From the NCBI GenBank assembly GCA_914767715.1, contig OU612065.1, forward strand, positions 1,116,001 to 1,180,000: DNA of 64,000 bases, in the 5' to 3' direction. Origin of the DNA: Membranipora membranacea. Its lineage: Eukaryota; Bryozoa; Gymnolaemata; Cheilostomatida; Membraniporidae. Shown here piece by piece: positions 27,001-50,915 of this stretch. A model generated the notes under the pieces. The model was not told where the DNA came from and did no database searches. It worked only from the letters and a program-made list of their open reading frames with translations. The first letter of the stretch is position 1; each line of letters opens with the position of its first letter. Position numbers and translations under genes: made by a program.

Positions 27001-30000
27001 ATTACTAACCATTAGAAGGAGTGGGAGACGGTGTGTCAGATCTTAATGGCTGAACAGAAGCCACAGGTTTCTTACTAGTTAACTGTTTCTGTGCTAAGTG
27101 TTGGGCGATACTGGTCTGCAGGCTTATAATACTTGTCAACCACTGAAGATAGGAAATAAAGTTATACGCATGAAAACAAGAACTTTTTAATTGTGATCTG
27201 GAGTAAAAAGTCTTATGTATATTACTCGACTTTTACGATAAGAGCTGAATGTGTATATTAGTTAGTTTGAAGATAAAAGGATATCTAGTATATGTCGATA
27301 AAAGGTAACTCTAATATCAAGTTTGATCAGATTTGCCTGTTTTACAGTTTCTCTCCATCTATGGATAAGATCCTGTAGGTTTGCTGCCTAATTTTTGTTG
27401 CTACTACCTCAATCATAATAATGGAATCTCGCTCAGACAGTCACCCAAATCGTCTTGTCTGTGAGACCTGGCTATAGATAGAACATATGATTATGAGCTG
27501 AGAGCATCACTAATATAGTCAGCCCATGGATAAAAATACCTCTTCTTGTTCCTGTTCAGTGACGGTACTGTTGGATTTCTGTGATTCGCTTATTGAGGTG
27601 ACAGCAGCAGTTGGGGCAGCAGGTTTAGTTATATTTTGCGTAGAGGTAAAACTGTTGTTAGTGTAGTCTGCTTCTGAGCTCTCCATATGTTCCAAACTAA
27701 ATAATGAGGGCAGAGGCAAAGGCTCCGGTGGAAATCTGAAATTATACACAAATAAGGCTAGTCAGTGCTGTTTCCTACAGACACACTTAGTCACAGATAT
27801 ATATATTAGATATACATTATGCTCTGCTTGGTTTGTAAATTGTGAGTATATCAGATTTAGGCTGGAAAAGATTTCAATATGAAAGTTACTCACTTATATT
27901 GCATTCTGATAGCCTCTGGAACGTCGCATGTTTTACGACCCTCAATAAGCATCTTCGATCTGAACGGAGGGTTAGCACGGTGTACCTTACTGAGGAAGCT
28001 CATTTTTACTGTATGCTGATCCAAATGTCCGCAGTATTTATCGTAGAGCTTTATCCTATGGGTGATGGAGTTACTTTTCATCAATTTCTCATCCTGTAAT
28101 TCAAGCCATAATATCAGATTTACTTCAACATATCAATGTATGTGTACGTACCTTTTGGACCTCATTGTCTTATTGCAATACATGCGAGGTCAAAAATAAA
28201 GGGCAAGCATTAAATGAAAAAAACCAAAAAAAACCAACAGATAAGGAGCAATGTGATGAAGGATTGTGTTGATCAGTAGTAGTGAGTAGTGAGGTGACTT
28301 ACTATAACATGTTCAGGGTAATGAGAGTGAGGTGACTTACTATAGCATGTTCAGGGTAATGAGAGTGAGGTAACTTACTATAACATGTTCAGGGTAATGA
28401 GAGTGAGGTGACTTACTATAATATGTTCAGGGTAATGAGAGTGAGGTGACTTACTATAACATGTTCAGGGTAATGAGAGTGAGGTAACTTACGATAACAT
28501 GTTCAGGGTAATGAGAGTGAGGTAACTTACTATAACATGTTCAGGGTAATGAGAGTGAGGTAACTTACTATAACATGTTCAGGGTAATGAGAGTGAGGTA
28601 ACTTACTATAACATGTTCAGGGTAATGAGAGTGAGGTGACTTACTATAACATGTTCAGGGTAATGAGAGTGAGGTGACTTACTATAACAAGTTCAGGGTA
28701 ATGAGAGTGAGGTGACTTACTATAACATGTTCAGGGTAATGAGAGTGAGGTGACTTACTATAACATGTTCAGGGTAATGAGAGTGAGGTGACTTATTATA
28801 ACATGTTCAGGGTAATGAGAGTGAAGTAACTTACTATAACATGTTCAGGGTAATGAGAGTGAGGTGACTTACTATAACATGTTCAGGGTAATGAGAGTGA
28901 GGTGACTTACTATAACAAGTTCAGGGTAGTGAGAGTGAGGTGACTTACTATAACATGTTCAGGGTAATGAGAGTGAGGTGACTTACTATAACATGTTCAG
29001 GGTAATGAGAGTGAGGTAACTTACTATAACATGTTCAGGGTAATGAGAGTGAGGTGACTTACTATAACATGTTCAGGGTAATGAGAGTGAGGTAACTTAC
29101 TATAACATGTTCAGGGTAATGAGAGTGAGGTGACTTACTATAACATGTTCAGGGTAATGAGAGTGAGGTGACTTACTATAACATGTTCAGGGTAATGAGA
29201 GTGAGGTGACTTACTATAACATGTTCAGGGTAATGAGAGTGAGGTGACTTACTATAACATGTTCAGGGAAATGAGAGTTAGGTAACTTACTATAACATGT
29301 TCAGGGTAATGAGAGTGAGGTGACTTACTATAACATGTTCAGGGTAATGAGAGTGAGGTGACTTACTATAACATGTTCAGGGTAATGAGAGTGAGGTGAC
29401 TTACTATAACATGTTCAGCGTGATTGGGGCACCTCCATCTGCCAGTGGGTAGTACGGTAAGGGGTGGATTGAGACAGTCCTGATGAAAGAGTAGGGGGCA
29501 GTAATCACATTGTATAAGGGGTGCCACTCTACAGTTCCTGTAACAAACATATAAAAACTGCAGCTACAGAATACCGTAAGATAAGAGAGAATTCAATGTC
29601 AGTGGTTGCCACAGATTGGCCTCGCTGGTCTGCAATAACTGAGGGGATTTTGATCTGTGATCTAACACTACTAATGCGATCACAATGATGAAGGCATGTT
29701 TTGTTCGAGTGATACTGTGATGGTAAATCAAATAAATGATGAGAGTGGTCACTTACTTAGAACACATGAAGCATACTTTGGCTGGTAGAGGGACCAGTCC
29801 ATTATCCAGTTCATGAGCAGGTTTTTTAACAGGAGGTCCTTTCCCGTTGCTTCCATTGAAGTAACGCCTTTTACTGGTCCCTGCAACATCATATGCACTC
29901 AGAATCACAGATAATAAGCTTGTATGGTTCCAGTTTATTGAAATTACCACCAAAGTACCATATCTGTAGAGACAAGCTTATAAAATTTGACGGCGCAGAG

Positions 30001-31967
30001 GGCAGGATATTTGTCATGAGTGATATAAATACTATTATTTGACAAGAAGAGGAGGAGGTTAGACTCACCAGGTAGTTGGATATGAGGTATGAATGATTTT
30101 GGTATATCCATCTGACCAGGGTTCATCATACGAGCTGCTCTAGCCAGAGTCTGTAATGGATGCTCAGGTAGACCACCCAGCTCTTGGATACCCACAGGAC
30201 TAATCGACTTCACAGACACTCTGCTGCTCTGCTTTGTAAATAACAATCATAATCATGGATCAACATTATAAAAAATAAATTAATATGGGTGAAAACATCC
30301 GGATAATTAAGTTTATACAGTTCGTAAAATTTCTTTACAACAATCTTTGTCTGCTAACTGATCACCAAATATACTAATATCTAAACTATAGAAGATGGAG
30401 ATATCAGGCAGTGTAAACAGAAGGTTCTTCGTCACAATAGGACTTTGATGTGTCTACAACTGCATGTAAAAAATATATCATGAGAAAATTATAAGTGTCC
30501 CATACAGTTACTGTTGATAAAGTAACTTTGCAAAGTTTGTGACCTCATTCTGACATCATCACTCACCTCTGATTCAGGCTTTTCATCCTTCTCACATTTA
30601 CATTTGTGACAAAGCCACTCTCCTTTAGGAACATCCTCCTCTTCAAGCGGAGGATCACTGTTGAACAATAAACAGGAGATTTAATTGCTAGTACAGTAGC
30701 AAGTAACAAACTCAACATTTAAAGAGTGAGAATAATCCTCTCTTTTATTCACCAAGTCGGAGAGTAGATAATTCCTATCCTAATTCATGCGAAATTATGA
30801 TACTGATCATTACATCTCGAGTAAGAAATAGATATACAAATAATTTCAAGTTAGGGTTATATGCTGAAGGTATTTATCTTAGGGTTATATGCTGATGGTA
30901 TTTATCTTAGGGTTATATGCTGAAGGTATTTATCTTAGGGTTATATGCTGAAGGTATTTATCTTAGGGTTATATGCTGAAGGTATTTATCTTAGGGTTAT
31001 ATGCTGATGGTATTTATCTTAGGGTTATATGCTGATGGTATTTATCTTAGGGTTATATGCTGATGGTATTTATCTTGATTTAGAGATATATTGTTATTGT
31101 AGAAAAAACAGGTACCAGGAAAGTTGTCTCTGAATTGGATGAAAACTTCTTGTTAAACATAACCAAATAACTATTGATAATACTTTGAATCAATCTGGGA
31201 AAGAAATCAGTGAGTGACACAGATAAGGTAACTTACTGGCACTGTAGGTGGAAGGCACAGGGACATTTATCACAGCAGAGTAAGTCACCACCCTCCTTAC
31301 AGCTGTCACATGTATCGTGATTTTTGCCTGGTCTGAACCTGTATGCTTGGTTAGCTTCTCTCTCTAGTCTGCGCTGTCTTTTCAGAGCCTCCTCACTCAT
31401 TGGGGGCGCTATCAACTTTTGTATATGCTATAAATAAATACGTACATCAAGTAAATATATATATCATTTGCTCATGATGTGTGTAAATACACTCTACTAA
31501 AAGTGACAACGCCCCTTTGCTTTGCCACATTGACACAACTTTATGATCTTGTGAATAAATAGACTTTATGTTCTGAATTTTGATTGAATGCATATGACAA
31601 ATTCTTGAAATGCTTCGAAATCGCACTGGATTATGTTATAAAGTTTGAGAATCTGCTCAACTAGAGGGACTTTTATTATTTAGTTTTCTAAATTGGCTTG
31701 CAGTTTGGTTTAGGGTTATATTGACCAGCTGCAGCTGGCGCGGGCCAATTTCAGCACAAACTTGTCAAGTTATGCTTGGGAGAATATGGATGTTTTTCTT
31801 GGCAGCAAGGTTTGATAGCCTCTATTTCTACAAATATGACATTTAAGTTGCAACACCACAGAGATGTCAGTGTAATCATAATGTCACAAACTCCACCAGT
31901 ATATCAGACCTACCTCCATCACACCACCTGACACTGCAGCATTTATATCAATGTCTAGATTAGCCAT
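24021..31967 (-). CDS. PHF12: PHD finger protein 12 (PHF12/Pf1), 16 exons, 807 aa
   Basis: PHF12 bridges the Sin3-HDAC corepressor to chromatin through two PHD fingers; this role is known from the family. Minus-strand exons: 31967-31914, 31427-31237, 30657-30567, 30231-30069, 29880-29757, 29537-29405, 28093-27894, 27735-27540, 27142-27010, 26584-26459, 26155-25997, 25717-25628, 25381-25244, 25018-24831, 24635-24444 and 24266-24021. All phases agree. PHD1 (about residues 50-95) has [13 protein letters not shown] and then HDPPLEEE and WLCHKC. PHD2 (about 205-255) has [20 protein letters not shown]. The Sin3-interaction-like helix region contains [17 protein letters not shown]. The C-terminal FHA-like domain contains [18 protein letters not shown] and FELLNYS, then a [13 protein letters not shown] block. 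The central region, residues 390-560, is Ser/Thr-rich. The protein is shorter than the human one (about 1000 residues), mainly in the linker. The intron after the PHD2 exon is a splice-site minisatellite. Confidence 0.96.
25112..25144. repeat. Inverted repeat in a PHF12 intron
   Basis: CCATAGATATAAAA and TTTTTATATCTATGG form a 14-base stem with a short loop. Noncoding, between exons 25381-25244 and 25018-24831. Confidence 0.75.
28283..29412 (-). repeat. 38-bp minisatellite made of the PHF12 exon 6 splice donor
   Basis: Thirty positions at an exact 38-bp period (first GTTCAG at 28311, last at 29413, no indels) fill the intron just downstream of the PHD2 exon. On the coding strand each unit holds CTGAACATGTTATA, identical to the last 14 bases of the exon, followed by the donor GTAAGTCACC and a pyrimidine-rich CTCACTCTCATTACC. 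The copy at the array's upstream edge (donor at 29404) is the real exon end. Twenty-nine of 30 copies keep GTAAGT; the copy near 28791-28796 has ATAAGT. Variation is mostly a single A/G site. Reading past the first donor meets TAG within 13 codons. Confidence 0.95.
30851..31074. repeat. 28-bp minisatellite, 8 copies, in a PHF12 intron
   Basis: Eight exact-length units begin TTAGGGTTATATGCTGA and end GGTATTTATC, differing only at one A/T position, in the intron between exons 31427-31237 and 30657-30567. Each unit contains one TTAGGG hexamer. Confidence 0.95.
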
Positions 31968-49374: not shown

Positions 49375-49449
49375 GAACAGTAGTTATCTGTCCCTACCAG
49401 AACAGTAGTTATCTGTCCCTACCAGAACAGTAGTTATCTGTCCCTACCA
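49375..49449. repeat. 25-bp tandem repeat, 3 copies, 3' of the ZnT1 gene
   Basis: Three consecutive copies of a unit starting GAACAGTAGTTATCTG and ending CCCTACCA lie 155 bases after the stop codon, probably in the 3' untranslated region. Confidence 0.9.
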
Positions 49450-50827: not shown

Positions 50828-50915
50828 TCAAATGACTAAATTACTAAATGGTTCAAATGACTAAATGGTTCAAATGACTAAATGACTAAATGGTTCAAAT
50901 GACTAAATTGGTCAT
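50828..50915. repeat. Short imperfect tandem repeat (about 17-bp unit)
   Basis: Units of the type ATGGTTCAAATGACTAA recur with partial copies between 50828 and 50915, and variants of TGGTCATTGG/TTCATTGG surround them. Noncoding. Confidence 0.8.

Follow-up and report, generated by a model that had tools for sequence, protein, structure and literature searches.

A thirty-unit minisatellite across an exon-intron boundary repeats the 5' splice site of a PHF12 intron in Membranipora membranacea

An intron of the PHF12 gene of Membranipora membranacea opens with a row of near-identical copies of its own donor, which raises the questions of which copy is joined to the downstream exon, how such a row could have arisen, and whether it is more than a neutral repeat. 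The intron lies on the minus strand of contig OU612065.1 within the window, by which the whole analysed stretch of 64,000 nucleotides is meant, and the array is known from one haplotype. The features of the locus, in window positions, are the following.

29405..29537, minus strand: PHF12 exon with most of PHD2 (Pfam PHD and PHF12 match), its last 14 nt opening the repeat unit
29399..29404, minus strand: exon-proximal donor GTAAGT, which alone among six translated keeps the PHF12 frame intact
28279..29418, minus strand: minisatellite of 30 x 38 bp, head-to-tail, with unit CTGAACATGTTATA (exon tail) followed by GTAAGTCACCTCACTCTCATTACC (donor and intron start)
28791..28796, minus strand: donor position of unit 17, the sole broken donor (ATAAGT)
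28094..29404, minus strand: inferred intron of 1311 bp, phase 0, with 29 GTRAGT donors
27894..28093, minus strand: next PHF12 exon, preceded by TTACAG (PHF12 match)

A piece of 117 residues with a PHD finger (Pfam 1.8e-9) was obtained when exons 29537-29405 and 28093-27894 were joined behind the last part of the exon before them. All 117 residues matched chain 8bpa_C (PHD finger protein 12) with E = 5.3e-45, in an alignment that runs across the splice junction and has a two-residue gap a few residues past it. Both scores agree with an earlier note on this DNA, in which the upstream exon had been identified as the PHD2 exon of PHF12, and since the match crosses the junction, the frame that makes PHF12 is the one in which the donor at 29404 is joined to the acceptor before 28093. 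That note had also expected later donors to lead to a stop, and this was borne out for all five later donors translated (2, 3, 4, 6 and 30), each of which reached TAG at the 13th codon past the exon end. The TAG is formed at the splice junction when donor 2 is used and lies inside unit 2 for donors 3, 4, 6 and 30; the remaining later donors should stop as well, because their products contain the same unit 2.

The array was described by TRF with a period of 38, 30.0 copies, 96% matches, 0% indels and a score of 2131. TRF together with in-register cutting confirmed the proposed 38-bp unit made of the last 14 exon bases plus the GTAAGT donor, and the array itself stood, with its bounds moved from 28283-29412 to 28279-29418. 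Each unit comprises 14 exon and 24 intron nucleotides with GTAAGT inside the intron part; the array starts 14 nt inside the PHD2 exon, whose last 14 bases head every unit. Thirty copies in exact register rule out chance. GTAAGT is intact in 29 of the 30 units, unit 17 being the exception. Units 1-29 carry 19 substitutions in total, with at most three differences per unit and 14 of 29 identical to the consensus, and in unit 30 the first 29 bases are identical and the last nine positions diverge, where the array terminates. Nearly half of the substitutions (9/19) are one C-to-T change immediately downstream of the donor, shared by units 4, 9, 11, 16, 22-25 and 28; slippage between copies, or conversion among them, would leave such a pattern. 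The suggestion of a recent expansion or of homogenisation is a fair reading of such near-identical units. The tetranucleotide CTGA stands at the array's 5' border and again just past its 3' end, a placement that would fit slippage between short direct repeats but is a weak sign of it.

Other tandem repeats were seen in the window. A second PHF12 minisatellite (30851-31076, 28 bp x 8.1, 98%) is located in the middle of another intron and its unit contains no GTRAGT. Two short arrays, at 49375-49449 (25 bp x 3, identical copies) and 50828-50909 (nested 17/25/42-bp units), lie in or near a putative zinc-transporter gene, named by eye.

The suggestion that the donors are specially conserved gained no support: substitutions in units 1-29 affect 1 of 174 donor bases versus 18 of 928 other bases (Fisher P = 0.34, low power), and the same comparison without the common C/T site gives P = 1.0, likewise with low power. 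Local folding, run at one setting, predicted low accessibility at every donor of the array (range 0.007-0.134) and no advantage for donor 1, whose value of 0.018 is under the median of the 30. The calculated U1 duplex energy of the repeat unit (-5.6 kcal/mol) equals that of the PHD1-exon donor (-5.6), and two other PHF12 donors are stronger (-6.4 and -7.3); by predicted pairing energy the array unit is an ordinary donor.

Recursive splicing and acceptor use within the array had likewise been proposed. The unit reads TATAGTAAGT, in which AG and GT overlap by one G; a ratchet point with juxtaposed AG and GT is absent, and a zero-length recursive exon is impossible because the two dinucleotides share that G. 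Use of the unit's AG as an acceptor would open a 37-nt exon starting with TAA. Recursive splicing at this array was not supported and is unlikely.

Minisatellites of the same genome were compared in a sample of 31 sequences, 364 kb in all. Besides the 64-kb window, the sample consisted of twenty 10-kb stretches within the opening 390 kb of a 41-Mb contig and of two interior regions of 50 kb each, one lying 10 Mb into that contig and the other 8 Mb into a second contig of 35 Mb. Non-overlapping arrays with a period of at least 12 and at least 3 copies were counted, and 83 were found, 76 of them at the minisatellite-rich contig end, four in the window and three in the two interior regions. The consensus of 11 arrays contains GTAAGT, where the unmasked part of these sequences would predict 1.29 (10/79 when the arrays of the window are left aside); none of the three interior arrays has the motif. 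GTAAGT ranks first of 2079 hexamer classes over the 83 arrays (Poisson P = 1.3e-7 before correction), and in 2000 simulations the count of 11 was never reached, the maximum being 6. Among the 90 rearrangements of its letters it comes top for arrays and 49th for unmasked DNA (80 arrays, 264 kb). It is also first among these at the array 5' edge, with 15 strand readings, a next value of 9 and a mean of 2.3, a result tied to the enrichment itself. Behind GTAAGT in enrichment come TATACA, GTAGTA and ATATAC, so simple-sequence tendencies play a part. A purely splice-related cause is further opposed by the origin of nearly all arrays from one chromosome end and by the orientation of five of the 11 motifs, antisense to the adjacent gene as read.

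Three of the 11 GTAAGT arrays span an exon-intron boundary, namely the PHF12 array and two with putative exons. The arrays linked to donors and those beside a gene read in the opposite direction are listed below.

L002:7667-7849, 36 bp x 5.1: boundary-spanning array that takes in 31 exon nt, with an LRR similarity below threshold upstream
L018:7104-7205, 22 bp x 4.6: boundary-spanning array with 19 exon nt, putative exon by open frame and splice motifs
L010:1784-1943: array starting at a putative donor, exon by open frame and splice motifs only
L016:4341-4396: array starting at a putative donor, exon by open frame and splice motifs only
L007:7356-7411: array starting at a putative donor GTATGT, exon by open frame and splice motifs only
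L006:3565: array starting 3 nt downstream of where a putative plus-strand donor begins, its own GTAAGT on the other strand; adjacent gene read as opposite (reading frames by eye)
L007:4921 and L009:4645: adjacent gene read as opposite (reading frames by eye)
L009:2828: adjacent gene read as opposite (GPHH domain)
L019:4618: adjacent gene read as opposite (sub-threshold NOMO match)

Homology support is missing in four of the five exons at the other donor-linked arrays (L018, L010, L016 and L007). Pfam searches with whole reading frames gave only sub-threshold matches to LRR_4 in L002 (7e-5), AmyB_C in L010 (0.0025) and HC2 in L016 (0.012), and no match in L018 or L007. Codon usage gave P = 0.04-0.58 for the putative exons, but this test proved unfit for the purpose, since even the PHF12 exon, though in the training set, reached only P = 0.30.

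Several further arrays were noted in these sequences. L006:3565-4675 and L006:6034-6514, 1.4 kb apart, have nearly the same 27-bp unit, which is acceptor-like on the plus strand (AACTTACAG). The ends of L009:4645-4697 and L019:4618-4686 coincide with or adjoin a putative 3' splice site in a minus-strand gene; their repeated ACTTAC, which we take to resemble a branch-point sequence, raises the prospect that intron 3' ends may also be copied. Frames are open beside coding-looking sequence at L003:7052-7195, L002:5113-5224 and L008:2476-2620 (periods 36, 27 and 21, each divisible by three), possible protein-coding minisatellites. The long degenerate CCCCAAA/CCCAAA repeat at the start of contig C1 (L001:1-2400) is not the canonical TTAGGG and could be either a telomere variant or a subtelomeric satellite.

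Minisatellites that span exon-intron boundaries are described in amphioxus as mirages (Adh3, BflGb6, BflGb9, TnC and PGBD5); in the excerpts of these reports they duplicate splice sites without aberrant mRNA and are unstable in length (PMC3087553, PMC3902484). The PHF12 array has the structure that defines a mirage, a boundary-spanning unit with a repeated splice signal, and we consider it likely that it is a neutral, homogenised one of which the exon-proximal donor is used. A short stretch across the boundary would have been duplicated in tandem, giving birth to the minisatellite, and slippage or unequal exchange would then have enlarged and homogenised it. The array could be tolerated if its 5'-most copy remained on the real exon and the spliceosome joined the exon-proximal donor to the downstream exon, in which case the other 28 intact donors would be intronic decoys. 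Such an origin is favoured by the boundary-spanning unit kept in one register over 30 copies, by the continuity of PHF12 over the junction with donor 1 as against the stop after all five later donors translated, and by substitutions that do not spare the donor. It gains by analogy with the amphioxus mirages, whose architecture is the same and whose regular splicing is reported to be undisturbed. A recurrent mutational process would also be expected to leave such arrays elsewhere, and five more in this genome cross or begin at putative donors.

What speaks against first-donor use is that donor 1 has no advantage in predicted local folding, and against neutrality, the GTAAGT enrichment in other minisatellites could mean more than a neutral process. 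When 5' splice sites are duplicated in vitro, the intron-proximal one tends to win once all carry U1, a preference that would predict the wrong donor in the PHF12 array. Human boundary minisatellites reportedly alter splicing and form new introns (PMC2812944, in excerpt), and by that analogy interference at PHF12 would be possible. A further paper, in excerpt, relates to how one of several duplicated 5' splice sites is selected (PMC8724738).

The functions put forward in the earlier note, a brake on PHF12 or a U1 sponge, are possible. If later donors were used appreciably, PHF12 mRNAs with premature stops would be degraded and output would fall with copy number; 29 intact donors of equal sequence, the stop met by all five later donors translated, a first donor not predicted to be more accessible and the splicing changes reported for the human paralogs (PMC2812944) would suit such a scheme, yet the regular splicing reported for amphioxus mirage genes (PMC3087553, PMC3902484) and donor bases that show no extra constraint make it unlikely. 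Very improbable is an array that recruits or sequesters U1 snRNP and thereby shields the transcript from premature polyadenylation or tunes splicing: the 29 GTAAGT sites and the first rank of this hexamer in the sampled minisatellites would speak for it, but neither AATAAA nor ATTAAA occurs in the inferred intron 28094..29404, so that there is no such signal to suppress, no donor constraint was detected, and RNA from the five arrays antisense to their adjacent gene, as read, would carry ACTTAC, which is not a U1 site. We think it slightly less probable still that the array length is an assembly artefact, inflated or collapsed from another true copy number. Assembly is difficult through 38-bp units so nearly alike, and BflGb6 of amphioxus is reported to have been aberrantly assembled in the draft genome (PMC3087553, in excerpt), but scattered private substitutions tell some units apart, contigs of 35-41 Mb suggest long reads, and the boundary-spanning design is independent of copy number.

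On the preferred reading, a neutral mirage spliced from its first donor, 30 near-identical donors of which only the first is protein-compatible amount to a natural experiment on 5' splice site choice at equal strength, one that pits exon definition and proximity to the exon against proximity to the acceptor. A broader proposal is offered tentatively and is rather doubtful: minisatellite birth in this lineage may be coupled to splice sites, with arrays preferentially starting at or copying 5' donors, rows of identical donors recurring and the exon-proximal one being reliably picked. If this were true, the top rank of GTAAGT would be its genome-wide trace. The frequency of donor-bearing minisatellites in this genome may be the new part, and their GTAAGT enrichment is the part most worth following; should they be recurrent, as the sample suggests, many loci would bear on this choice of donor and also on the idea that tandem duplications are seeded by splice sites, a proposed route of intron gain.

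The GC content is 36.5-39.4% in ten interior stretches of this genome, lower than the roughly 41% of Branchiostoma, as might suit a different lineage, and an Rfam search over 144 of 264 kb yielded no hit that pointed to a clade. As in the amphioxus mirages, the PHF12 unit spans the boundary, repeats the splice signal and adjoins a real exon, and its copies would likewise evolve in concert; its 38 bp fall in the range given for Adh3 (10-72 bp, with 150-160 bp in the globins), and its 30 copies compare with 3 and 6 units reported for BflGb6 (PMC3087553, PMC3902484, in excerpt). Among the matches listed, these are the only papers that use the term mirage in this sense, which does not imply absence elsewhere. 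The boundary minisatellites of human segmental duplications average four 30-bp units, with 27 intron modifications reported, and in those recent paralogs they are said to have produced new introns as well as alternative splicing (PMC2812944, in excerpt), whereas at PHF12 an existing intron was enlarged and its acceptor lies outside the array. As far as the excerpted source goes, the Rogers model of intron gain by duplication of a segment with juxtaposed AG and GT has tandem duplication with splice signals in common with the PHF12 array, which, unlike that model, makes no new intron. CeRep25B of C. elegans is also intronic and is linked to multiple alternative splicing, but it is described as a repeat family with splicing-regulatory motifs (PMC4039745, in excerpt), and the PHF12 array is made of the gene's own exon end and donor. 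Set among these systems, the PHF12 array is by its structure an extreme, very regular and long mirage, most likely neutral and recent.
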